64,000 nucleotides of DNA from Flavobacterium acetivorans. Lineage in GTDB: Bacteria > Bacteroidota > Bacteroidia > Flavobacteriales > Flavobacteriaceae. How positions within the stretch are numbered: the stretch's first letter is position 1; each line of letters opens with the position of its first letter. Shown piece by piece: positions 4,596 to 64,000 of this stretch. The stretch is from assembly GCF_020911885.1 (NCBI RefSeq), contig NZ_CP087132.1, positions 310,001-374,000 of the forward strand. Reading direction: 5' to 3'. The position numbers and the translations under genes were made by a program. Below the pieces are notes generated by a model. The model was not told the origin of the DNA. It saw only the letters and a list, made by a program, of their open reading frames with translations, and searched no databases.

Positions 4596-5106
4596 TCGAC
4601 TCGCCTAGCATTGCCATTTTTAGTTAAATAAGGCTTCGACTGCGTTCAGACTGACATAATGAATGTCTTTATATATTGCTTTTTTGGTAAAAAATTAAAC
4701 CTCAGTATGACAGCATGAATATCCATTTATTTGCTTTAAAAAAAATATGCCTCGAGCTGACAACTAATGTTATGATAATTAAACCATTGTCAGCTTGATC
4801 CGTTTATACTTAGCAAAGCCGAAGTATTCGATTTGACAACTCTGTTGCTCTCGACTAGCCTAGTATTGCCATTTTTAGTTCAATAAGGCTTCGACTGCGC
4901 TCAGCCTGACACAATGAATGTCTTTATATATTGCTTTTTTTGTAAAAAATTAAACCTCAGTATGACAGCATGAATATCCATTTATTTGCTTTAAAAAAAA
5001 TATGCCTCGAGCTGACAACTAATGTTATGATAATTAAACCATTGTCAGCTTGATCCGTTTATACTGAGCGAAGCCAAAGCACTCGATTTGACAACTCTGT
5101 TGCTCT
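4596..5106. repeat. Tandem pair of ~255-bp repeats
   Basis: Two nearly identical copies (4596-4850 and 4851-5106). Each begins TCGACT(A/C)GCCTAG and contains a REP-like arm (GGCTTCGACTGCGCTCAG), TTTATATATTGCTTTTTT, CCTCAGTATGACAGCATG, GCCTCGAGCTGACAAC and a final CAACTCTGTTGCTC. No coding potential is apparent. The same unit recurs at 5502-5850, and shorter relatives occur at about 36173-36235 and 63270-63350, so it is a dispersed family rather than a local accident. Confidence 0.85.
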
Positions 5107-50870: not shown

Positions 50871-51259
50871 TTTATATTTTTATTTTTTTTCTAAAGAACA
50901 AAATCCGACTCTAAATTAAATGTTCTAACAGAATCGTCAACAATCAGCCAACCTAAAACCTGAAATCCAGAATACTCTAAAAAACTCAAACACTAGCGCT
51001 CTAATTTACCCACAAAGAAAATCAAAATAATTCTTTTAACGGTACTTTTATCGAAACCTAATCATCTCTTTAGTAAAAAAATCTGTATAGTGAACTTTTA
51101 TGAAACTCCTAACTTTCATGACAGTTCTAATATGTTTGTTCTTTCACAGCTCCATTGGGCTACTTTCTCTTTAAAAGCTTTATCGTAAATTTTAAGCACT
51201 CGTTTCGTCAACTACAATTAAGATTCTTTCTTAACCCGCCGCTGTAATGGCTAAAATAA
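50871..51259. other. Non-coding region upstream of rfbC
   Basis: About 390 bp, AT-rich, with no convincing ORF. It should contain the rfbC promoter; no clear TAnnTTTG/TTG pair was fixed. It runs directly into the heptamer array. Confidence 0.5.
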
Positions 51260-51536
51260 CTGACAACCGATAACCGATAACCGATAACTGACAACAGACA
51301 ACAGACAACCGACAACAGACAACCGATAACTGACAACCGATAACTGACAACCGATAACCGACAACAGATAACCGATAACTGACAACCGACAACCGACAAC
51401 AGACAACCGATAACTGACAACCGATAACTGACAACCGATAACTGACAACCGACAACAGCTAACCGACAACAGATAACAGATAACCGACAACTGACAACTG
51501 ACAACCGATAACCGATAACTGACAACCGACAACTCA
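51260..51536. repeat. Pure heptamer array, about 39 units
   Basis: Uninterrupted 7-bp units, nearly all CCGATAA, CTGACAA, CCGACAA, CAGACAA or CAGATAA, with no length errors over ~277 bp. Because 21 bp is three units, all minus-strand frames stay open and read as a seven-residue repeat (SVVSYRL type). The array ends exactly where the IS110 remnant begins. Confidence 0.95.
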
Positions 51537-51880
51537 CCAGCTACGCAGGATTGGATGTGGTTGAAAAACAGTCAGGGACGTGCGTAAAAGGTAAACCGAA
51601 AATAGCGAAGAAAGGAAATCGATATTTGAGAAGTGCTTTACATTTGCCGGCACTTAGCACGATAAAATGGAATGATAATTTTCGAGATCAATATGCAAGA
51701 ATAGTAGCGAAACACGGAATTAAAATGAAAGCATGCGTGTCTGTACAGAGAAAATTATTGGAACTGATATATGTAATTTATAAAAACAAAACAGTGTATG
51801 ATAAGGATTATGAATCAAAAAAAAATAGCATGCTAGCACAAAAGGCATAAAGACGCTATACAGTCTGGCTCTAAGACTAC
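51537..51880 (+). pseudogene. IS110 transposase, 3' fragment
   Basis: Encodes only the last ~105 residues of an IS110 transposase: SYAGLDVVEKQSGTCVKGKP, GNRYLRSALHLPALSTIKW and AKHGIKMKACVSVQRKLLEL, then a stop at 51850. About 70% of positions match the intact copy at 36653, and homology continues past the stop (GACGCTATACAGTCTGGCTC). The 5' two thirds are missing and replaced by the heptamer array. Confidence 0.9.
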
Positions 51881-51988
51881 AAATTCCAGCTATATTGAGC
51901 ACCCAATTCCAATTTAACATTAAAGAATCTTAAATTTCAACCCAAAAAACTAAGTAAACTTTCACTTCTCACCCATAAACAACTTCTA

Positions 51989-52054
51989 GTCCCGTTCAAC
52001 AGCGACTTCTTGCTGGGCCTTGCAGACCGTATGAAATCTTACTTATTGGCAGTA
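51989..52054 (-). repeat. attC-like cassette end 3
   Basis: On the minus strand, after the gene pair: TACTGCCAATAAGTAAGATT ... CTGTTGAACGGGAC. It shares its first ~20 and last ~15 positions with the sites at 53323-53412 and 54523-54588, while the middle differs. Its outer arm TACTGCCAA is complementary to TTGGCAGTA at the 5' border of the same gene pair (53068-53077). Confidence 0.55.
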
Positions 52055-52083
52055 GTTATAATTGTAGATAAAAATGGTTTGGC

Positions 52084-52467
52084 TTATTTGATTAGATGTT
52101 TTTTGATTTCATCTAAATTAGTTTTTGCAAGATTTGCTTTTGCAGTAGACACTCTATAATTTGAATATCTGGCATTCATACAAGCATCCAAAAGCCATCT
52201 ATAATGAGAAAAACAGCTGGGAATATGTATTCTAACAAGTTGTTTTGTACCCTCGTGTTTGGAAATCCTTCTACTTTTTAATACTAAATTATAATAAGTA
52301 TTAAAATGAGGATATGTTGTGCCATTCTCTGTTAGAGGGAATATTTCATGTTGAACATAGTGCAATGCTGAATAAAAAGAAGTTGTTACAATCCAATCAG
52401 TAAATTTGCCATCTGCTATGAGAAAGTCACATACACCCTCATTATGCTTTGCATGATCTTTACTCAT
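52084..52467 (-). CDS. HEPN-like small protein
   Basis: 127 residues, mostly helical. WIVTTSFYSALHYVQHEIF, KSRRISKHEGTKQLVRIHIP and WLLDACMNARYSNYRV resemble the HEPN fold; RRISKH fits the RX4-6H motif of HEPN ribonucleases. It follows the 155-residue gene by 4 bp, suggesting a two-gene module such as toxin-antitoxin. The pair forms one cassette between attC-like sites. The HEPN assignment is from pattern and needs a profile search. Confidence 0.5.
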   Translation of the reverse strand: MSKDHAKHNEGVCDFLIADGKFTDWIVTTSFYSALHYVQHEIFPLTENGTTYPHFNTYYNLVLKSRRISKHEGTKQLVRIHIPSCFSHYRWLLDACMNARYSNYRVSTAKANLAKTNLDEIKKHLIK

Positions 52468-52471
52468 TTTA

Positions 52472-52939
52472 TTATTTTGAAGACTTATGTTTTAGGTTAA
52501 ATCCATCGGCCTTAATACAACTATCGTCAATTTCTCCATCAGTATCATAGATACTAACATTGAGTTTATAAAATTCAGAGCCAACGTTGTCTTCTAAATT
52601 AGTCAGATAATCATAAACTGAATAAATTTTATCACTTAAAAATTCATTTTCTGGCAATATTAATAAAATAGAAAAATCATCCCATGAGTTTATTTTTAAA
52701 TAAGCACCTATTGGATTAAATTTTTGTTTTTTCAGGTATTTTAATATTTCATTTGTATAAGAACCTGAATTATTGATATTGGTTTTTAGTTTATCAACAA
52801 TCAATTTTTCTGTTTGTTCTAATGCTTCATTTTTACCTGTAAGATAAGCATCAATAACATGGTCTGATGTATATAAGCGTTCACTTGGAGAAGTAAATTC
52901 CCAATTTACAGGTGCTAATATTTTTTGAATAGTTGCCAT
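52472..52939 (-). CDS. Hypothetical protein, first gene of HEPN-like pair
   Basis: 155 residues, alpha/beta, not recognised. EALEQTEKLIVDKLKTNINN is a helix, and SWDDFSILLILPENEFLSDK and FYKLNVSIYDTDGEIDDSC are beta-rich acidic stretches. No nucleotidyltransferase GSxxxxD motif is visible, so it is not a classic MNT antitoxin. It is co-directional with the HEPN-like gene, with a 4-bp gap, and could be its regulator or antitoxin. Confidence 0.6.
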   Translation of the reverse strand: MATIQKILAPVNWEFTSPSERLYTSDHVIDAYLTGKNEALEQTEKLIVDKLKTNINNSGSYTNEILKYLKKQKFNPIGAYLKINSWDDFSILLILPENEFLSDKIYSVYDYLTNLEDNVGSEFYKLNVSIYDTDGEIDDSCIKADGFNLKHKSSK

Positions 52940-53421
52940 GATTTTTTTTGCAAAAGTACGTTAATTGATCAAATATACAATAGATAGAGAAATATACAAC
53001 AAAAATTAACTTTCTTAAAGTATTATAATTCTTCACTTTAGTTAGATTCTTGATTCGACCTAACAATTACTGCCAACTTATATACAGACCTAACAGCTAT
53101 CATTTTTTATTCAAAATCAAATATATTCAATTTTTCTTACAAATAATCAAAAGCACTTTTTATTTGCCGCAGGCTTTTCGTACTAACGCGAGTGCATATT
53201 TCAGTAGTTTCACCACTTGCAATACCTTATTGTAAGGCCATAAAAAAAGAGGACACTAAATCCTCTTGACATTCTCTCTCAAAACTTTACGATAACTCCA
53301 TAGTACCTGCCAGTGACCGGTTCCGTTCAACCGGAGTTTCATTACTTCGTCCGTTCGCTGTCGCTCGGGTGTTCGTCCTGCGCACGCAACGAAAACTTAA
53401 CTGTTACCACACGTTTTTTTT
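52940..53421 (-). repeat. attC-like site and spacer between cassettes 2 and 3
   Basis: No gene in 482 bp. On the minus strand the site runs from GTGTGGTAACAGTTAAG (53412 down) through a variable hairpin centre and CGGTTGAACGGAACCGG (near 53323) to AAGTTGGCAGTAATTG (53077 down). GTTACCACAC at 53403-53412 matches the complement of the 5' border of the preceding gene's own cassette (54299-54308) at 9 of 10 positions. Confidence 0.55.
53242..53267 (-). terminator. Terminator inside the cassette spacer
   Basis: Minus strand AAGAGGA TTTAGTG TCCTCTT followed by seven T; perfect 7-bp stem. It would end the transcript of the 53422-54288 gene. Confidence 0.75.
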
Positions 53422-54288
53422 CTAAATCATTGTCATCTTGTCTCCATTTTTAACCATTCCAGTCAAGTCTATTTTAAAATCTTCTTTAACTTTCTTTGCA
53501 AATTGAAATGGATTAACATCTTTTAATATTAAAATTTGTCTTGTTAAACGAGGATAATATAATGTTCCAAAATTACCCATCGGAAAATGTATTCCAATTG
53601 CTGGCTGATAAGGGTTATTGGATATTAAATAGCTATATGAATAAGCCCCAGTTTTAGCATCACCAAACGGTATTGGAATTGATTGGTTGCCATAAATTGT
53701 CATTGAAGTTGGTTGTCCCATCGAAATGGACATTTTCATTAAATATTCCAATCCTCTTTGAGTTGTATGCACAGTTATATGAAATCCTCCAATACTTTCT
53801 ATGCTTCCGCTTGAAATAACTTCTTCAAATGCTTTAGAATGTACGCCAATAATATGTTTCATATCGGTACTCTTTAAATTTGACAAGAAGTTTCGTTGAA
53901 ATAAATTTAATCCAGAAATATCGCCAATCCAATGATTCTGATTTGAGGGTACTATTTCACCATTTGAGATTTTATAAAGCAAAGGTTGATTTTCTAATGC
54001 GCCAATTAAAAAGTCAGTGTTATAATTTGAAGTTTTATTTATTTCGAGAAGCAACTTTTTAACTTTGTCTATTGTTAGTTCATTTAGTTTATAAACTTCT
54101 TCAATTGCTTCTTGAGCATTATCGATTCCGCCAGCATAAGAAAAGCAAAGCCTTGGATTTAAAATGATTGTTTTTAGTAAACCGGAAAAAATACTATTCC
54201 GATTAGAGGCTATATTTGGGTCAGTGATTTTTGAATCACTGTCAATTCTTAATGAACCTTGAACTATTTTTCCGATTACTAATGTCAT
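53422..54288 (-). CDS. Predicted proteasome-like Ntn hydrolase
   Basis: 288 residues with no close family name known to me. The start MTLVIGKIVQGSLRIDSDSK parallels HslV/proteasome beta: removal of Met would expose Thr1, and Asp falls exactly at position 17. LLKTIILNPRLCFSYAGGID then offers Lys (38 versus 33) and the AGG-xDA turn (AGGIDNAQEAI). DFLIGALENQPLLYKISNGE and HWIGDISGLNLF parallel the next strands. The C-terminal ~110 residues are an added alpha/beta region (PTSMTIYGNQSIPIPFGDA). It is a monocistronic cassette in an array of orphan genes. Proteolytic activity is inferred only. Confidence 0.5.
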   Translation of the reverse strand: MTLVIGKIVQGSLRIDSDSKITDPNIASNRNSIFSGLLKTIILNPRLCFSYAGGIDNAQEAIEEVYKLNELTIDKVKKLLLEINKTSNYNTDFLIGALENQPLLYKISNGEIVPSNQNHWIGDISGLNLFQRNFLSNLKSTDMKHIIGVHSKAFEEVISSGSIESIGGFHITVHTTQRGLEYLMKMSISMGQPTSMTIYGNQSIPIPFGDAKTGAYSYSYLISNNPYQPAIGIHFPMGNFGTLYYPRLTRQILILKDVNPFQFAKKVKEDFKIDLTGMVKNGDKMTMI

Positions 54289-54637
54289 TTCTTAAAATGT
54301 GTGCTAACTTGTATATAACATCAACAAGTAACGCTTTTTTAAAGTTTTACAATAAATTAAGTAATATATCCTAGCTCGTAAATAAAGTCTTTTTTAACTA
54401 TTGCTACAATACCCCCTTTTGGTGATATTTGACTAGAATTAGAAAGCTTTCTTCAGATACAAGACCGCTATAAAACAAAAAAAAACACCCAGTCTCTTTT
54501 TCTATATAGTTATATTCCGGTTCCGTTCAACAGGAGTATCATTCTTGGCTTTTCAAGCCCAACGAAGCCTTATCTGTTAGCGGTTGCCATTTTTAGTTTG
54601 TAACTTTTATTTAAGTTCACGATGTTCAAATCTATAA
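54289..54637 (-). repeat. attC-like site between cassettes 1 and 2
   Basis: 349 bp without a gene. On the minus strand it begins GGCAACCGCTAACAGATAAG (54588 down), contains a GGCTT/AAGCC hairpin and CTGTTGAACGGAACCGG (54523), and after an AT-rich centre ends ATACAAGTTAGCACAC (54308-54299). CGCTAAC is complementary to GTTAGCG at the 5' border of the same cassette (55072-55078 plus exon 1). The length is long for a classical attC. Confidence 0.55.
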
Positions 54638-55030
54638 TTATGATATTACTACTTTACCGCTAAATAAACTATTCGCTCCAATAGTTACGTTACCTTTTTC
54701 ATCGTGATTTGATGATACTCCAACTTCTTGATACATCAATCCATCTTTTAAAAAAGTTTGAACTTGAGGGGAATTACCAAGTCCGTGTTTTTTTGCTTTG
54801 ATATACAAAGTGAATCCATTAGAATCATTTGCCCAATTATCTTCTTTAAAATTATAAGTATAAGTTGTTGGAACGAAAATTGATATAATAGAGCCTAAAG
54901 TTCCACATACTAAACTGATAAATCCTAAAACAGACGAGCTTTTTTGCCAGTTTGTGTTTGGTACTAAAAGTATTACTGCAATGATTAAAAATGTAACTGC
55001 AATTATTTGTATAATTTTCTTTGTGGACAT
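54638..55030 (-). CDS. Small two-helix membrane protein
   Basis: 130 residues. Two membrane helices (IIQIIAVTFLIIAVILLVPN; VLGFISLVCGTLGSIISIFV) are followed by a ~75-residue soluble domain of beta character (GFTLYIKAKKHGLGNSPQVQ, GNVTIGANSLFSGKVVIS). Not recognised. It starts 41 bp after the intron's 3' end and is the first gene of its cassette, so its expression probably depends on readthrough or splicing of the intron transcript. Confidence 0.65.
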   Translation of the reverse strand: MSTKKIIQIIAVTFLIIAVILLVPNTNWQKSSSVLGFISLVCGTLGSIISIFVPTTYTYNFKEDNWANDSNGFTLYIKAKKHGLGNSPQVQTFLKDGLMYQEVGVSSNHDEKGNVTIGANSLFSGKVVIS

Positions 55031-55118
55031 AATTTTGTTTATTATTATTTTTTTTGTTCTGAGGTATGGTTATCGCTAATCGAGTCACGCAAGGGAATTT
55101 CACCCCTACGTTCTCACG

Positions 55119-55152
55119 GAACCGTACGTGAAAGTCTCCCTTCATACGGCTC
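55119..55152 (-). ncRNA. Group II intron domain V
   Basis: 34-nt hairpin starting GAGCCGTATGAAGGGAGAC and ending GTACGGTTC: catalytic AGC-type triad region, two stems separated by the usual bulge, and a loop. It lies 31 bp after the maturase stop, as in class C introns. Confidence 0.9.
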
Positions 55153-55182
55153 TTCATGTTAATAAATCACACTAAATTCAAT

Positions 55183-56412
55183 TTATGGATATACCAACAA
55201 CCAATGTGCAAATAACCAAGGTTTTTCATCATACCTTGTTTTTAAGTATCGAACTGAAGCCTTTTTATACAAATCCTTTTCCCATTTTACCCATTTCAGC
55301 AACCGTGCATTGAGCTGAAACCACACCATACGCATATCATCTTTCCAAAAATGGTGGTAGTAATTAATGATACCACGCAGTACTGGATTGATTTCGTTGG
55401 CAATTTGCTCCAAAGGTTTTCTGCGTTTGTGAAGATTCATTTCCCTGAATTTCTCCATAATACTGGACTTGGACTTTTGACTAACACAAATACAAGGGAT
55501 GGATTTTATAACTCCTGTTCCTTTGACTTTATAAGGTCGTGATTTGATTGTGAAGCCTAAAAAGTCAAATCCTTTTGGATACTTCTCCAATGAGAATCCC
55601 CGCAAATTTACGATTTTACTTTTCTGCTCATGCAACTGAAGTTTACACGATTTCATGCGCTCTTGTATTTGTCGCAACATAAATTTCGCTTGCTTTTCGG
55701 TTTTGCAATGCACAACAATGTCATCTGCATACCGCTCAAAGGGCTTTTGAGGGTGAACTTTGTCCATCCATTTATCAAATACTACATGTAGAAATAAATT
55801 GGCTAAAAGTGGACTAATTACTCCGCCCTGCGGTGTGCCTGAGAGCGACGGACTAAAGTTTCCGTCTTGCTGTACAATGCCAGCCTTGAGCCATCTTTCT
55901 GCATACATCAAAATCCACTTATCCGAACAATAATGACCCAATGCTTTAAGCATAAGATCGTGGTCGATGTTGTCAAAGAATCCTTTGATGTCCAAATCTA
56001 CAGCAAAATCGTGGTTGTACGAATGGGCAAGAGCTTGTTCTACTGCCTGATGACAATTGCGCTTTGGGCGATACCCGAACGAACTCGGATGGAATTTAGG
56101 TTCTAAAATTCGTTCTAAATGTCTTCTTGCTACTTGTTGAGCAATACGGTCTAGAATTGTAGGAATGCCAAGTAGGCGCTCTCTACCTCCTTTCTTAGGT
56201 ATTGCAACTTGCTTGACGGGTTTTGGAAAGTAACTCCCAGAACTTAAGCGATTCCATAGTAAATAGAGTTCGGTACTTGCATTTTGTTGCAAATATTCCC
56301 AACTCATTTTGTCTATTCCACCACTTCCAGCATTGGATTTTACCTCCTTGTATGCCTGCCAAACCATTACTTTGGTTATTGGCTGTGATTTTGTCTCATA
56401 GTAATCAATCAT
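55183..56412 (-). CDS. ltrA: Group II intron reverse transcriptase/maturase (LtrA type)
   Basis: 409 residues. RT blocks: NAGSGGIDKMSWEYL, PKKGGRERLLGIPTILDRIA, SSFGYRPKRNCHQAV, DLDIKGFFDNIDHDLM, GTPQGGVISPLLANLFLH and the active site FERYADDIVVHC. A maturase (X) domain follows, ending KPWLFAHWLLVYP, which is typical of class C. No endonuclease domain is present, as expected for IIC introns, which insert next to hairpins. The protein appears complete and functional. Confidence 0.93.
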   Translation of the reverse strand: MIDYYETKSQPITKVMVWQAYKEVKSNAGSGGIDKMSWEYLQQNASTELYLLWNRLSSGSYFPKPVKQVAIPKKGGRERLLGIPTILDRIAQQVARRHLERILEPKFHPSSFGYRPKRNCHQAVEQALAHSYNHDFAVDLDIKGFFDNIDHDLMLKALGHYCSDKWILMYAERWLKAGIVQQDGNFSPSLSGTPQGGVISPLLANLFLHVVFDKWMDKVHPQKPFERYADDIVVHCKTEKQAKFMLRQIQERMKSCKLQLHEQKSKIVNLRGFSLEKYPKGFDFLGFTIKSRPYKVKGTGVIKSIPCICVSQKSKSSIMEKFREMNLHKRRKPLEQIANEINPVLRGIINYYHHFWKDDMRMVWFQLNARLLKWVKWEKDLYKKASVRYLKTRYDEKPWLFAHWLLVYP

Positions 56413-56935
56413 TCCTTTTACGGTTGTAAATTGTTTTGAAACTTAACATGCTTAGCCCTTCGCTCCATTTTCATTACAAAAACTTCTGCACTACTACGAC
56501 TAAGTCTGCCCCCTACATCTCAAGCACATCCTCTCTTGTCTGCTTCCTCTAAATGATTTTACAGAACGATGTAGAGTTCACTTGTTCCTTAAAACAGCCT
56601 GAATACCTGTCCTGCCAACTTAACCCCGGATGCCGTGTACCCAGTAGTCAGGTTTCCGATACACTTTTATCATAGGTACAAACGTAACTACCTATTTTTG
56701 ACATCATCTGTTGCGCTTACGAGGCTTCGTCATTGGTTCACTTGCGTTCAGCTCAATGTATTCGTACCTACAGAAGTCATAGCTTCCGTTTTTCCTTATC
56801 GCTCACCACCAGCATGTTTCCAATACTCGCAGCATAAGGTGGTTTAGTAACTATTCCTGAAAATCGTCACTGAGAGACCTACTCTCATCTGTCTTAAAGC
56901 ACCAATCAGACAAGGCTGATTGTTCAAGTCACACA

Positions 56936-57062
56936 CGTTTGGCCGCTTGGCGATGTGGCGGATTAAAGAATCCTAAACTTTCGGTTAAACACTGATTTTC
57001 CCAGTACAAAATCATCTTTAAACTAAGCCTAATCCCGCCATATAGCCAAACGGCGGTTACAG
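56936..57062 (-). repeat. attC-like hairpin, left part of the intron-split site
   Basis: Minus strand from 57060: GTAACCGCCGTTTGGCTATA then TGGCGGGATTA; about 65 nt later TAATCCGCCACAT, CGCCAAGCGG, CCAAACGT. The arms pair (CGTTTGGC with GCCAAACG; ATGGCGGGATTA with TAATCCGCCACAT), the right arm having one duplicated CGCTTGGC. The intron begins directly after CCAAACGT, and the terminal TAGCG of the site lies beyond it at 55078. Confidence 0.65.
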
Positions 57063-57214
57063 GAAGCCTTTACTTTTTTGGTACTGATATTTCTATTTAA
57101 TTGCAATTTTGTTTAACAAATTTGGTTGTCTTATTTCCACAATCTACAGGTTTATGAAAATATATTAACAATAGATTCAATGCTTTTATCTTTGAAGGCA
57201 ATGGTGAAGTGTTG

Positions 57215-57256
57215 AAAGCAAATAGGTTGACTGAAGAACCTATTTGCTTTTTTACA
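57215..57256. terminator. Strong terminator after lipoprotein gene
   Basis: AAAGCAAATAGGTT and AACCTATTTGCTTT form a perfect 14-bp stem with an 8-nt loop; the T-run (TTTGCTTTTTT) is on the plus strand. It ends 4 bp from the lipoprotein stop at 57260. Confidence 0.75.
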
Positions 57257-57259
57257 ATA

Positions 57260-57619
57260 TCATTCGATTTTATTGACAATCAAAATTTCTTTTGATTTAT
57301 TTTTATAAACATCTAAAAAAAGTTTAACTCTTTTGTTTTCTAGATTATTATAAATTTTTGAGTTAAAATACTCATAATTGAAAGTTTCATCATTTATTGG
57401 CAATCCAATAATTTTTTTAGAATTTTCATAGTAATATAAACTAGTTGTTAAATTACTTTCATTAATTCCTGTCAAGTTCGCAGTTAATTTTTTGTCTACA
57501 TTTGTTTTTCCCACACTGTTTAAGACAACCTCAATTATTCTTCTCTCCATTATTTTTTTACTTTGAGAAGAACAATGATTAAAGAGTAGCATCATTAAAA
57601 TTAAAGATATTTTTTTCAT
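57260..57619 (-). CDS. Small lipoprotein, possible immunity-type partner
   Basis: 119 residues with lipoprotein signal ISLILMMLLFNHCSSQSKK. The mature part (VLNSVGKTNVDKKLTANLTG, YYYENSKKIIGLPINDETFN) is not recognised. Its ATG overlaps the stop of the C39-like fragment upstream by one base, so the two were translated together. A cytoprotective role toward that protein is possible but unproved. Confidence 0.6.
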   Translation of the reverse strand: MKKISLILMMLLFNHCSSQSKKIMERRIIEVVLNSVGKTNVDKKLTANLTGINESNLTTSLYYYENSKKIIGLPINDETFNYEYFNSKIYNNLENKRVKLFLDVYKNKSKEILIVNKIE

Positions 57620-58152: not shown

Positions 58153-58890
58153 TTAGCTTTTGTTTATGCCCCTTTTTTTTCTCATAGATTCTCCGTGCAA
58201 TTCGATTCGGTGAGATTGATGTATCAGCCTATCCAAAATTGCATCAGCTATTGTTTTTTCTCCAATGATGTCATACCAGCCTTGCACTGGGATTTGTGAT
58301 GTTACAATTATAGAACCATTATTATGTCTGTCTTCAATGATCTCTAAAAGGGTAATTCGGTTATGACTGTCTAGTGCTTGGAGTCCAAAATCGTCCAGTA
58401 TAATAACATCTTGCCGTTCTATTCTTGCCAGTTCTCGAAGATAAGAACCATCTGCTTTGGCCATTTTTAATTTAGCAAACAACTTTGAAGTATTAAAATA
58501 ACTTACCTTAAAACCCTGTATACAGGCTTGATAACCTAATGCTGTACCTAAATAACTCTTACCTACACCAGTACTTCCTGTGATTAAAATGTTTTCGTTT
58601 TTCTCTACAAATTCGCATTCTGCCAGACGTAGCACCATGTTTCGATCCAGATTACGGGTTTGGTCAAAATTGATACTTTCAATATTTGATTTGTAATGGA
58701 ATCGGGCATTTTTGATACTGCGTTCAATGCGACGATTATGCCTTTCATCCCATTCGGCATCAATAAGCATCGATACAAACTGATCAAGTGTGTAATGGTC
58801 AGTTTTCCCGCTTTCAATGGCGGTTTTAAAAGCATTATGCATACCATAAAGCTTCATTTGTTTCATTTTTGTTACTGTAGATTCATTCAT
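58153..58890 (-). CDS. istB: IS21 helper ATPase IstB
   Basis: 245 residues, AAA+ target-selection ATPase of IS21. MKLYGMHNAFKTAIESGK, ERRIKNAR-like IERSIKNARFHY, Walker A ILITGSTGVGKSYLGTALG, Walker B DVIILDDFGLQALD and ITSQ-like IVTSQIPVQGWYD, then ADAILDRLIHQSHRIEL. Complete. It lies 17 bp after the istA stop in the normal istA-istB order. Confidence 0.95.
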   Translation of the reverse strand: MNESTVTKMKQMKLYGMHNAFKTAIESGKTDHYTLDQFVSMLIDAEWDERHNRRIERSIKNARFHYKSNIESINFDQTRNLDRNMVLRLAECEFVEKNENILITGSTGVGKSYLGTALGYQACIQGFKVSYFNTSKLFAKLKMAKADGSYLRELARIERQDVIILDDFGLQALDSHNRITLLEIIEDRHNNGSIIVTSQIPVQGWYDIIGEKTIADAILDRLIHQSHRIELHGESMRKKRGINKS

Positions 58891-59443: not shown

Positions 59444-61036
59444 TCAATCCAATAAATTCTGATTGAAGTATTGAGGAAGAAGATTGTGAAGTTCTGAAGA
59501 TTTGGTGTCGTTGATATTTTCAAGGACATGATGTAGCCATTTGGATGGATTGATATTATTTTTCTTGCAGCTGGCAAAAAACGAATAATACATGGCAATA
59601 TCCTTTGCAGCTTGGTGTGAACCTGCAAAAAGATAATTTTTTCTTCCCAAGGCCAAGGGTCGAATGGTATTTTCAACCTGATTGTTGTCAATATGCAGAT
59701 TTCCGTCTTTTAGATAAGCCATCAAACTGTCCCAACGTTTCAAGCAATAATTGTAGGCCTTGCCCAGCGGACTTTTGGGTAATTCTAATTTTGACTGCAC
59801 TGCAATGTAGTTCCCTATTTCGTTAAGTAAGGGATGTGATTCTTTTAATCTTAAAGCATATTTTTCCTGGATTGAAAAGTTTTCAGAAGTGGCTTTTCGT
59901 TCAATTTCATATAGCTTTTGGATAAGCAACATCACGTGCGAAGCATTTGCTTTGTTATAATCCAATGCTTTTTCAAAATAACGGCGCGCATGTGCCCAAC
60001 AAGCTATCTGTGTGACGTTTTCTTTGAGTGCAAATTGCGGATATACTCCATAACCATCGGTTTGAAGATAACCTACAAAATCGTTTAACATTTCCAAAGG
60101 GCCTTCGCTGCCGCGTCCTTTTCGATAATCAAAATACACACTTTTGGGTATAGGCGCGTGATACACCCACATAAATCCAGTATGTGTTGCGCCTTTTTTA
60201 TCTGTGTCCTGTACTTTTATTGGGGATTCATCCGCCTGAAGATAACCGTTTTTCAGCGTATGCTGTCGGTGACATTCGTACAAGGGTCGAAGTAATTGGG
60301 ATACTAATCTTACCCATGAATCGACCGTAGAAGAAGGTATATCGACTCCTTCTCTTGAAAATCGCTGTATCTGTCGGTAAAGCGGAAGGTGATCCACAAA
60401 CTTATCGGTGATGATTTGAGTCAAAAGATGGGTTCCAGCAATACATTTTGGAATCGGACGAAAATCGAGAGAGGCAATTTTGACTTGCTGGTTTCCTTTT
60501 TCATCCACCGGGGCAACATATTTATTTCGGATGTAACGGTTGATGAACAATTTTGCGGGAGTATATTCCAATTCATCAGTAATTTCCTGACCAATGCATT
60601 TCAATCCTTCTACATTTTCAGTCGGTTCCAAAATGATTTCGTTTACCGCAAGGTGCGATGGTAAAGCCATACGGCCTTGATGCTTTTTGCTTGCTTTTTC
60701 GCGTTCGTAAGTGATTTGCTCTTTTACCGATTCAACGGCTTGTGCTACTTCTTGCTCATCGATTTCAAAAGGAATGGCTAATTGCTCCGGATTTTCACTG
60801 GCGATGAAACGTTCTTTCTTAGAACCGTACATTGCTCTTTTGAACTGTTCAATCTGGAATTTTAGATAACTAACCTCTTGTTCAAGTTTCGTGGCTACAA
60901 TCTCTAATTTTTCGGTTTTGGATTCTAATTTATTAGATTTGGATTCTAATTTGGAATTCGCTTTTATTTGACTTTTGAGTAATTTCAAAAGTTCGTCTTT
61001 AGAGTAATTATCAAACAAATCTGGTGCGTTTTCCAT
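59444..61036 (-). CDS. tnpC: IS66 transposase TnpC
   Basis: 530 residues. An N-terminal coiled coil (about residues 20-70: KANSKLESKSNKLESKTEKL) is followed by a zinc-finger-like region, then the DDE transposase core (LQADESPIKVQDTDKKGATH, YLQTDGYGVYPQF, ACWAHARRYFEKAL) and the C-terminal DDE_Tnp_IS66 segment with the glutamate (DGNLHIDNNQVENTIRPLAL, GRKNYLFAGSHQAAKDIA). Complete. It carries the chemistry of transposition for this element. Confidence 0.95.
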   Translation of the reverse strand: MENAPDLFDNYSKDELLKLLKSQIKANSKLESKSNKLESKTEKLEIVATKLEQEVSYLKFQIEQFKRAMYGSKKERFIASENPEQLAIPFEIDEQEVAQAVESVKEQITYEREKASKKHQGRMALPSHLAVNEIILEPTENVEGLKCIGQEITDELEYTPAKLFINRYIRNKYVAPVDEKGNQQVKIASLDFRPIPKCIAGTHLLTQIITDKFVDHLPLYRQIQRFSREGVDIPSSTVDSWVRLVSQLLRPLYECHRQHTLKNGYLQADESPIKVQDTDKKGATHTGFMWVYHAPIPKSVYFDYRKGRGSEGPLEMLNDFVGYLQTDGYGVYPQFALKENVTQIACWAHARRYFEKALDYNKANASHVMLLIQKLYEIERKATSENFSIQEKYALRLKESHPLLNEIGNYIAVQSKLELPKSPLGKAYNYCLKRWDSLMAYLKDGNLHIDNNQVENTIRPLALGRKNYLFAGSHQAAKDIAMYYSFFASCKKNNINPSKWLHHVLENINDTKSSELHNLLPQYFNQNLLD

Positions 61037-63111: not shown

Positions 63112-64000
63112 CTCGTAAAATCACAACCGATAACCAATAACTCACGACTCACTGTCATCCTGAGGGAAGTCGAAGGACACAACCGATAACCGATAACCGA
63201 TAACCGATAACCGACAACCAACTTTATAAAATCACTACCATTGACGTTTTTTACATTACAGCCTCTCGACTCCGCTCGAGGTGACACTGTGGATATAATA
63301 TCATATTGCTTTTTTTGGTAAAAAATTATGTCTCGAAGCGACGGAAGTTATTTCGATTTTTACAGTCGTCAGTTCGAGTGTTTTTGGTTTTGAAAATCAG
63401 GAATTAAAGGGCAATCAAGTTGAAACCAAAAATGTATCGAGAACCCTGCTTAGACATTCACTTCTCACGATTCACGACTCACGATTCACTGTCATCCTGA
63501 GCAGAGCCTGTCCTGAGCTGAGCCTGCCCTGAGCTGAGCCTGCCCTGAGCTTTTGTCGAAGGGTCGAAGGGTCGAAGGGTCGAAGGACACAACCGACAAC
63601 CGATAACCGACAACCGTCAACCGACAACCCACAACTCCCTGTCATCCTGAGCAGAGCCTGCCCTGAGCTGAGCCTGCCCTGAGCTGAGCCTGCCCTGAGC
63701 TTTTGTCGAAGGGTCGAAGGGTCGAAGGACACAACCGATAACCGACAACCGATAACCCACAACCGATAACCCACAACCGATAACCCACAACCGACAACCG
63801 ACAACTCACTGTCATCCTGAGCAGAGCCTGTCCTGAGCTGAGCCTGCCCTGAGCTGAGCCTGCCCTGAGCTTTTGTCGAAGGGTCGAAGGGTCGAAGGGT
63901 CGAAGGGTCGAAGGGTCGAAGGACACAACCGATAACCGATAACCGACAACCGATAACCGATAACCGTCAACCGACAACCGATAACCGACAACCCACAACC
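63112..64000. repeat. Heptamers and expanded REP-like palindromes, window end
   Basis: No gene in 890 bp. Heptamer runs at 63125-63230, 63465-63490, 63590-63635, 63730-63810 and 63925-64000. Three long palindromes (63490-63590, 63640-63732, 63810-63926) start TGTCATCCTGAGCAGAGCC and end GTCGAAGGACAC. Their left arms repeat CCTGAGCTGAGCCTGC units and their right arms repeat GGGTCGAA two to five times. 63270-63350 is a diverged piece of the 255-bp family. Apparent minus-strand ORFs here are repeat translations. Confidence 0.9.

Follow-up and report, generated by a model that had tools for sequence, protein, structure and literature searches.

Among the closest described counterparts of the locus analysed here are the sedentary integrons of the Vibrio type, in which the integrase is IntI and its gene is usually directed away from the cassettes. 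Other recombinases that bear on the comparison, XerC and XerD, act at the dif site. According to a passage in PMC7790495, the single-strand recombination of IntI came about through the I2 helix, and an excerpt of PMC8618304 lists integrons for Bacteroidota. Introns of the IIC-attC type are described in a section of PMC7923331 as inverted, on the attC bottom strand, with one unusual top-strand case.

The window, a stretch of 64,000 nucleotides from Flavobacterium acetivorans, holds the decayed remnant of a gene-collecting platform that resembles the integrons with which other bacteria acquire resistance genes. Its units 1–3 are cassettes of a system that is integron-like in its working, yet is not an IntI integron. 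The remnant very probably derives from a chromosomal integron-like system of the Bacteroidota with a dedicated tyrosine recombinase, an attI-like site and arrays of attC-type sites, of which the window keeps leftover cassettes.

Cassettes and borders in the window

All parts of the remnant lie on the minus strand. Unit 1 (52045..53077) carries two open reading frames, 52472-52939 (155 aa) and 52084-52467 (127 aa), and unit 3 (54576..55078) carries one of 130 aa (54638-55030). Between them, unit 2 (53403..54308) encodes a 288-aa protein (53422-54288) for which family profile searches gave no match above the cut-off. The units are set apart by remnant spacers that end in attI-like motifs: the one at 53078..53319 contains a terminator-like hairpin and ends in TATATAA|GTT, and the one at 54309..54519 ends in TATATACAA|GTT, as the attI of relatives does. 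The 3' part of a fourth cassette, with a 119-aa frame (57260-57619), spans 57059..57619; a search for its 5' border did not find one.

Next to this fourth cassette is a canonical attC-type site (56935..57058; R'' GTAAC, stem CCGCCGTTTGGC..GCCAAGCGGCCAAAC, R' GT|T), which measures 124 nt from AAC to GT and matches the family median of 124 from AAC to GTT. Its last T is position 55078, on the other side of a group II intron that lies between the GT and the T of R' (55079..56934, boundaries GTGTG..AT). This intron runs in the orientation of the cassettes, encodes a 409-aa reverse transcriptase/maturase (55183..56412; TIGR04416, 401 bits) and has Rfam matches to D5 (55079-55154) and D1D4 (56766-56886). 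The genuine attC was masked by this intron, of which the sequence-only reading, made earlier on the same DNA, makes no mention; the limit at 57062 that it set for the array adjoins the far end of this site. A strict site search found zero attC on the minus strand of the window and, at 4782 of the plus strand, one borderline chance match; it returned one convincing site in the stretches of the own genome that were examined.

That reading had also proposed that the two borders of each unit are complementary to each other. The matches are as it gave them: 9 of 10 for unit 1 (53077/52045; start GTTGGCAGTAATT against R'' complement ATTGGCAGTAGTT), 9 of 10 for unit 2 (54308/53403), and 7 for unit 3 (55078/54576, with the intron skipped), ragged beyond. 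The motif TAACAG(A/T)TAAG, said to mark the sites, occurs at two of the three, and the first has CCAATAAGTAAG instead. Taken singly, the complementarity of own-genome units is mostly not significant. In a blind test, 9 of 25 own-genome sites stood out against the R'' sequences of other sites; 15 of 24 of the latter reached the score of unit 2 (7). Single window units inside this null are what would be expected if unrelated genes lay between dispersed repeats or REP-like palindromes and matched at their borders by chance. The statistical weight therefore comes from the family-wide test and from the relatives of unit 2 rather than from single units. Across the family, 115 of 136 cassettes have own ends that are complementary over at least 9 nt, against a mean of 2.5 and a maximum of 8 over 1000 shufflings; among neighbour pairs the count is 3 of 103. 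These figures, with the recurrence of unit 2 between identical borders in two other genomes, leave the chance explanation a practically negligible probability, and complementarity of a unit's own ends is a genuine signature. The match covers position 11 in only 1% of cassettes and position 12 in 91%. The 21 cassettes below 9 nt probably span intervening sites that were missed. In other genera, 17 of 34 cassettes reached 9 nt or more, against a shuffled maximum of 4, and the other 17 fell below.

The same cassettes also occur in different places. F. saccharophilum carries one cassette twice (99.7% identical), and F. omnivorum and Flavobacterium sp. 245 have a common cassette (97%) in different places, in each case with GTT borders. 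Unit 2 recurs in two relatives (G433 and G451) with identical borders, between canonical attC bodies unlike its own sites, so rearranged sites do exist in relatives. Synteny is not conserved genus-wide, the unit 2 gene being present in 6 of 199 genomes of the genus, the own genome included. Judged by comparison of these arrangements, cassettes are exchanged as units and joined somewhere within GTT, where IntI integrons recombine between G and TT. Together with the family-wide test, unit 2 in its relatives bears out the proposal of an integron-like cassette array.

Arrays and recombinase in relatives

At 80 loci, 162 attC-like sites were found in 355 kb downstream of the integrase, compared with 5 in 717 kb upstream and 2 in block-shuffled downstream DNA. 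The sites have the layout R''-spacer-stem-loop-stem'-spacer-GTT and form arrays of ~124-nt units; the 162 include 79 distinct perfect stem cores, and site bodies within one array are near-identical. In these sites, as in the hairpin discussed below, stems stay paired although the bases differ, so that the outcomes named by the sequence-only reading as refuting it (lack of covariance support, lack of empty or rearranged sites in relatives, conserved synteny) did not occur. Sites were seen at only 39 of the 80 loci. In 37 of the 41 siteless loci the DNA behind the integrase is at most 3.3 kb, and the remaining four (L233, L282, L283 and L284) have 4.5-10 kb and zero sites. Elsewhere in the phylum, sites were present at 11 of 11 loci (33 downstream, 0 upstream); in other genera they were present at 16 of 18, in a looser search that also yielded 10 sites upstream and 12 in shuffled DNA. 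The substrate may be a folded single strand; one site folded as ssDNA did no better than its shuffles (z -0.74).

An attI-like consensus precedes GTT in 64 of the 80 loci, with a mean pairwise identity of 0.68 over the 15 nt that precede the attI GTT, as against 0.34 between +12 and +60, and position 11 is A in all 64. This attI-like site beside the integrase would be the entry point for cassettes. The motif TAnnTTTG, to which a promoter function may be ascribed, lies no more than 45 nt from the integrase end at 62 of 80 loci (control windows, 51/1600), and 116 of 127 cassette frames run in the direction of the integrase. The anatomy of the system, the borders and the occurrence of cassettes in differing contexts are established.

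The tyrosine recombinase that heads intact arrays has 350-361 aa and does not possess the IntI-specific insertion (19 residues versus 61 in IntI4, 2a3v). It scores 201-207 bits with TIGR02249 (cut-off 265), in a match split into two stretches, and 199-217 bits with NF040815 (cut-off 220); the top Foldseek entries are 5hxy and 2a3v. An additional domain is present at its N-terminus, for which Foldseek ranked the SMARCAL1 HARP structure 4o66 first, weakly (E 0.33, prob 0.44), and HARP was not among the Pfam or PDB sequence matches of this domain. A close homolog with at least 280 residues covered occurs in 72 of 199 genus genomes. Phylum-wide, homologs were found in 55 of 198 at E 1e-60, but many align only from about residue 75-95 onward, so part of this number represents other subfamilies.

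The layout of the sites, as well as the integrons on record for Bacteroidota in the excerpt of PMC8618304, would also be compatible with an ordinary IntI integron whose intI is elsewhere or lost, the array-head recombinase being a bystander. This is highly improbable, since none of 299 family genomes (up to 7 candidates scored in each) reached the TIGR02249 cut-off, and arrays across family and phylum are headed by a non-IntI recombinase with the attI-like site directly behind it. The driver is probably a recombinase other than IntI, one of the options of the sequence-only reading. Its suggestion that the array is orphaned here was also correct: no intact integrase was found in the own genome, and integrase remnants stand in frame ahead of attI copies.

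An IS91-type element at the attC sites

The three GTTGAACGG segments, formerly read as attC R' ends, mark the ends of an IS91-type element with attC as its insertion target. The GTTGAACGGRAC stretch occurs exactly on the minus strand at 51989-52000, 53320-53331 and 54520-54531, with no further exact copy in the window; with up to 2 mismatches it has 9 window matches, a number within chance, since 10 of 100 shuffles attain it. The whole genome has 24 exact copies; if up to 1 mismatch is allowed, the count is 44, versus 14 for the reversed pattern. The exact copies are mostly clustered (G000:C1, 362-365, 2421-2435, 2602-2608 and 2899-2936 kb), and the few elsewhere have surroundings without the hairpin. 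In the window, R2 hairpins marking the end of this attC-targeting IS91/Y-recombinase element follow the R'' of unit 3 (54520..54575; covariance model E 8.5e-13) and of unit 2 (53320..53402; E 1.1e-10, with an element-end motif beside it at 53288-53304), both being copies from the model's training. A degenerate hairpin overlaps the R'' of unit 1 (51985..52057; E 7.8e-7, a copy outside the training). Full-length copies show an element of ~2.3 kb, inserted directly behind the AAC of attC R'', that has the hairpin at one end. The copy at L156 matches PF04986 (210 bits) and PF14319 (106 bits), which indicates an HUH Y2 transposase with a zinc domain, and the element combines the Y2_Tnp and Zn_Tnp_IS91 domains with a Phage_integrase partner.

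The three segments might instead be a new long type of attC (hairpin, terminator and promoter, 250-670 bp), with each cassette bringing its neighbour's promoter. In its favour, the hairpin covaries: 92% of cells are paired versus 31-56% when slid, and 57 double changes compare with 24.4 (0 of 500 shuffles as high), although the pairs with a double change and the further pair types lie within the shuffles (42 and 456 of 500). Copies of 410-670 bp, 84-97% alike, also lie between different cassettes at L137, L138 and L143 and stop at the GTT that comes next. This alternative is nevertheless unlikely, because GTT follows the hairpin in none of 86 distinct copies examined and the full-length copies situate it at the end of a mobile element within attC.

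It is also very unlikely that cassettes are moved by XerC/XerD or by the IS91-linked Y-recombinase, with the array-head gene as a passenger. Two open genes, named XerD and XerC from sequence, are present, and over aligned stretches the IS91-linked recombinase shares 31-36% identity with the array-head integrase; it belongs to an element that inserts at R''. However, the position of array and attI is fixed by the array-head gene, dif is the site of XerCD action, and the IS91-linked gene moves along with its own element.

Proposed model and comparison with known systems

The array-head recombinase is the presumed catalyst. In intact relatives, its dedicated gene lies immediately upstream of the attI-like site ..ACCCAAATTTGGGTG..TATATACnA|GTT, and the first cassettes would be transcribed from a promoter motif of the Bacteroidetes type where the integrase gene ends. 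A cassette starts with GTT, 7 variable bases and A and usually contains one gene in the direction of the integrase. At its end its first 10 bases return as their reverse complement, and an imperfect palindrome of ~118 nt comes after them. Circularised by the recombinase at GTT, it would rebuild the full R''/R' pair from its two own ends and could then be inserted at the GTT of attI or of another site. In the own genome, the integrase is left only as fragments, sites have been broken up by the IS91/Y-recombinase element, copies of the integrase 3' end with promoter and attI are scattered, and the window's single canonical attC holds the group II intron.

A more tentative proposal, which we consider possible but somewhat doubtful, is a Bacteroidota-born integron in which an Xer/XerA-like recombinase without the I2 insertion recombines folded single-stranded cassette ends by means of a small domain at its N-terminus that binds forks or hairpins and is possibly HARP-like. 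The 10-nt inverted "bar code" of each cassette would have to be rewritten as a gene turns into a cassette. If true, these arrays could reveal how cassettes arise. Standard searches may report very few integrons in Bacteroidota because the recombinase appears to have no IntI-defining part. The same anatomy without I2 would make the I2 requirement directly testable, and a large stock of mobile genes with poor annotation becomes accessible.

Compared with known systems, the element at the sites shares Y2_Tnp, Zn_Tnp_IS91 and the Phage_integrase partner with the IS91 family that has a companion Y-recombinase, but differs in inserting behind the AAC of attC R'' and in bearing an attC-like hairpin at one end. 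Like the IIC-attC introns in the cited section of PMC7923331, the window intron is inserted at GT|T behind the attC hairpin; unlike them, it lies in R' in the cassette orientation and not as a bottom-strand insertion. XerA and NF040815 ("site-specific tyrosine recombinase/integron integrase") are nearest to the integrase in fold and profile, whereas the present protein falls just below the cut-off, has the N-terminal domain and is tied to cassette arrays. With Vibrio-type sedentary integrons the system shares an integrase, an adjacent attI-like site, a directional array and palindromic sites of the attC type that have an R'' and an R' = GTT, are joined at GTT and are near-identical in body within an array. 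It differs from them in an integrase that lacks the IntI insertion and has an extra N-terminal domain, in the common direction of integrase and cassettes, and in inverted ends of 10 nt that are specific to each cassette and have position 11 as a fixed mismatch.

Cassette-like units and an interrupted site in the window

On the minus strand, window positions 51985-57619 contain four cassette-like units, the first three complete and the fourth partial. Units 1 (52045-53077), 2 (53403-54308) and 3 (54576-55078), all on this strand, each hold one or two genes of no clear family; one unit 1 ORF shows a weak DruH3 match (E 0.0038). An integron-like cassette array had been proposed at 51989..57062 from a conserved motif and from units whose own two borders complement each other. 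The motif was recovered exactly at three places in the window and belongs to a genome-wide set, and the border complementarity was as described when rechecked. Spacers in the window terminate in TATATACAA or TATATAA, each directly followed by GTT. An IstB/IS21-type ATPase (58153-58890) and an IS66 transposase (59444-61036) lie beside the array, and an IS116/IS110/IS902-type transposase remnant (51551-51850) lies just past unit 1. Long arrays of 7-nt units (e.g., AACCGAT, ACAACCG) occupy several intergenic gaps, including 51256-51533 and 63589-64000.

Between units 4 and 3 lies a group II intron (55079-56934; Rfam D1D4 and D5; RT/maturase, 401 bits), absent from the sequence-only reading and placed in cassette orientation. 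Joined across it, the flanks read GCCAAGCGGCCAAACGT followed by TAGCG, a complete attC-type site, i.e., R'' (ending in AAC), an imperfect palindrome of about 118 nt and R' (GTT). Its length, 124 nt from AAC to GT, lies near the family median (124 nt, AAC to GTT). PMC7923331 describes integron-linked IIC introns as entering the bottom strand of attC at TTGT/T. Compared with these, the window intron has the target GT/T, yet is oriented like the cassettes.

Arrays headed by a tyrosine recombinase

In relatives, a tyrosine recombinase, here called the integrase, stands at the head of such arrays, with a full gene in G436 (L140), G407 (L156; Flavobacterium sp. RSP15), G406 (L194), G445 (L204) and G416 (L198). 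F. acetivorans itself retains only a C-terminal piece, a 130-aa frame inside its large array, 54-58% identical to the last ~100 residues of the relatives' integrase. Matches at E 1e-50 occur in 115 of 199 genus genomes, and 72 of these, counted from the listed rows, have a hit with 55% identity or more across 280 or more residues. At least 20 rows of matches contain in-frame stops, and decay of the integrase is therefore common. The window is a decayed form of this system.

The arrays were analyzed in the best 80 loci of 305 relatives, mostly Flavobacterium species; a few are MAGs carrying the labels Saprospiraceae, Chitinophagaceae, Lutibacter and others, for which mis-binning is possible. 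The search was for AAC..GTT pairs that enclose a stem and made no use of cassette borders. The 355 kb downstream of the integrase contained 162 such sites, the 717 kb upstream 5, and the shuffled downstream DNA 2. At least one site was found in 39/80 loci; 37 of the 41 site-less loci extend no more than 3.3 kb downstream, and L233, L282, L283 and L284 yielded none in 4.5-10 kb. The 162 sites contain 79 distinct perfect stem cores. The longest stem lies most commonly 6, 15 or 3 nt from AAC and 10, 19 or 7 nt from GTT (counted separately), which suggests a fixed 4-nt asymmetry in stem placement.

Both ends were found 120-1500 bp apart in 136 cassettes, 30 of which begin at attI; 127 have an ORF of at least 60 aa, in 116 along the integrase direction. 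The two ends of a cassette are perfectly complementary over at least 9 nt in 115 of the 136, against a mean of 2.5 and a maximum of 8 in 1000 partner shufflings, and in 3/103 neighbour pairs. Agreement over positions 1-10 is 1.0, 1.0, 1.0, 0.95, 0.94, 0.92, 0.92, 0.92, 0.90 and 0.66 (positions 1-3 being fixed by the search itself), falls to 0.01 at position 11 and is 0.91 at position 12. Units 1 and 2 of the window obey this rule: position 11 is mismatched, and positions 12-13 match.

Past the integrase stop, the attI-like site reads ACCCAAATTTGGGTG, then TATATACnA directly before GTT. Anchoring succeeded in 64/80 loci; over the 15 nt preceding GTT their mean pairwise identity is 0.68, versus 0.34 at +12 to +60, and position 11 is A in 64/64. 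A promoter-like TAnnTTTG, which we take to be the Bacteroidetes -7 box, occurs no further than 45 nt from the end of the integrase in 62/80 loci, versus 51/1600 control windows. Five attI copies in the F. acetivorans genome are preceded by decayed in-frame integrase 3' ends, such as KTTEIQIHVSSKGL followed by two stops, IKSLFNDL and a further stop.

Cassettes recur in differing contexts. Unit 2 is present in 6/199 genus genomes, F. acetivorans included. The G433 copy and a broken copy in G451 are similar (89-90%) from the GTTAG (or TTAG) border up to R'' or a few bases short of it; outside lie canonical attC bodies, not the attI-like motif and hairpin. G418 and G363 (L317, L318) carry the unit 2 gene (81%) outside a cassette, and similarity to 53403-54308 starts where the 10-nt box stops, within two bases of position 11. 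These genes may be either a free ancestor or a cassette that has lost its ends, possibly a snapshot of cassette birth or death. A distant copy in G355 (54% protein identity) shows no such border. An F. saccharophilum array holds two copies of one cassette (99.7% over 967 bp, with differing neighbours), and another cassette is common to F. omnivorum and Flavobacterium sp. 245 (97% over 587 bp). The 136 cassettes yielded four such pairs in all, of which one is at 75% and one has a misplaced start.

An IS91-type element within attC

The GTTGAACGG segments, previously taken as attC ends, are part of a hairpin (covariance model R2) showing covariation. In a structure derived from the same sequences, 92% of cells are paired versus 31-56% when slid, and double changes number 57 versus 24.4 in shuffles (0/500 as high); pairs with a double change (9 versus 7.3) and further pair types (18 versus 19.2) are not above shuffles. 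R2 detects 29 copies at E < 1e-4 in the F. acetivorans genome, 22 of which had served to build the model; one or more copies were detected in 56/199 genus genomes.

The full element combines a Y2_Tnp/Zn_Tnp_IS91 transposase with a Y-recombinase, and the hairpin lies ~2.3-2.4 kb before its right end (~0.3 kb in three short copies). Such ~2.3-kb elements with an attC-like hairpin at one end occur in L139, L140, L146, L147, L189, L193, L207, L042 and L048. For 13 of 18 distinct right ends, an R' GTT follows at 118-120 nt, the distance expected from an attC body; for the other five it lies at 62, 124, 149 or 180 nt, or is missing (one). We read this as insertion just after the AAC of R'', which would separate R'' from the 118-nt body and R', with the element between them. 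Of 86 distinct hairpins in the DNA examined, not one is followed by GTT. The supposed sites are thus R'' boxes with the remains of an attC parasite behind them, and the window retains only its hairpin ends.

Breadth and comparison with known integrons

Two broader sets were picked on integrase score, not on arrays. In 18 loci of other genera from the family-wide list (looser site search), 16 had sites, with 82 in 147 kb downstream versus 10 in the 168 kb upstream and 12 after shuffling; 17/34 cassettes had own-end complementarity of 9 nt or more (maximum 4 in shufflings), position 11 being a mismatched A in 17/17. Outside the family (11 loci, 10 genomes, phylum-wide list), 11/11 loci had sites, 33 of them downstream and 0 upstream, against 2 after shuffling, and 6/9 cassettes showed this complementarity (shuffled maximum 5), position 11 being A in 6/6 and mismatched in 5/6. 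Close integrase homologs also occur on plasmids of Chryseobacterium sp. SNU WT5 (NZ_CP041688.1, L345; 67%; IS110 and a group II intron) and C. oryzae (NZ_CP094530.1, L346; 64%; an IS91/Y-recombinase pair), each followed downstream by an attI-like region and further genes; these are possibly mobile versions of the system. Plasmids of Klebsiella and Aeromonas carry partial integrase homologs that are more distant (51%).

Integrons have been described in Bacteroidota (PMC8618304, PMC9668308) and the Bacteroidetes/Chlorobi group (PMC2426708), IntI is recognized by an additional domain or patch, and the published wording leaves room for attC clusters without an integrase. A tyrosine recombinase classification (PMC8138268) describes the integron insertion as incompletely conserved in the integron-like subgroup; insertion-less members are therefore already known as sequences. 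Our literature search found no description of their arrays.

A structure model of the integrase (pLDDT 83) is nearest to XerA and IntI4. Its N-terminal ~60 residues, with two invariant Trp, are predicted to form a beta-beta-alpha-beta-beta-alpha domain; a weak Pfam match to DUF5710 and a top but non-significant Foldseek hit to SMARCAL1 HARP were obtained, and a HARP domain is our sequence-based guess. Scores reach 201-207 bits for TIGR02249 (cut-off 265) and 199-217 for NF040815 (cut-off 220), and the TIGR02249 cut-off was passed in 0/299 family genomes (at most seven candidates scored per genome). The alignment with IntI4 (2a3v) is broken into two pieces; between them, a stretch of 61 residues in IntI4 corresponds to 19 in the integrase. 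The system is integron-like in its working; by the IntI criterion, it stands outside that family.
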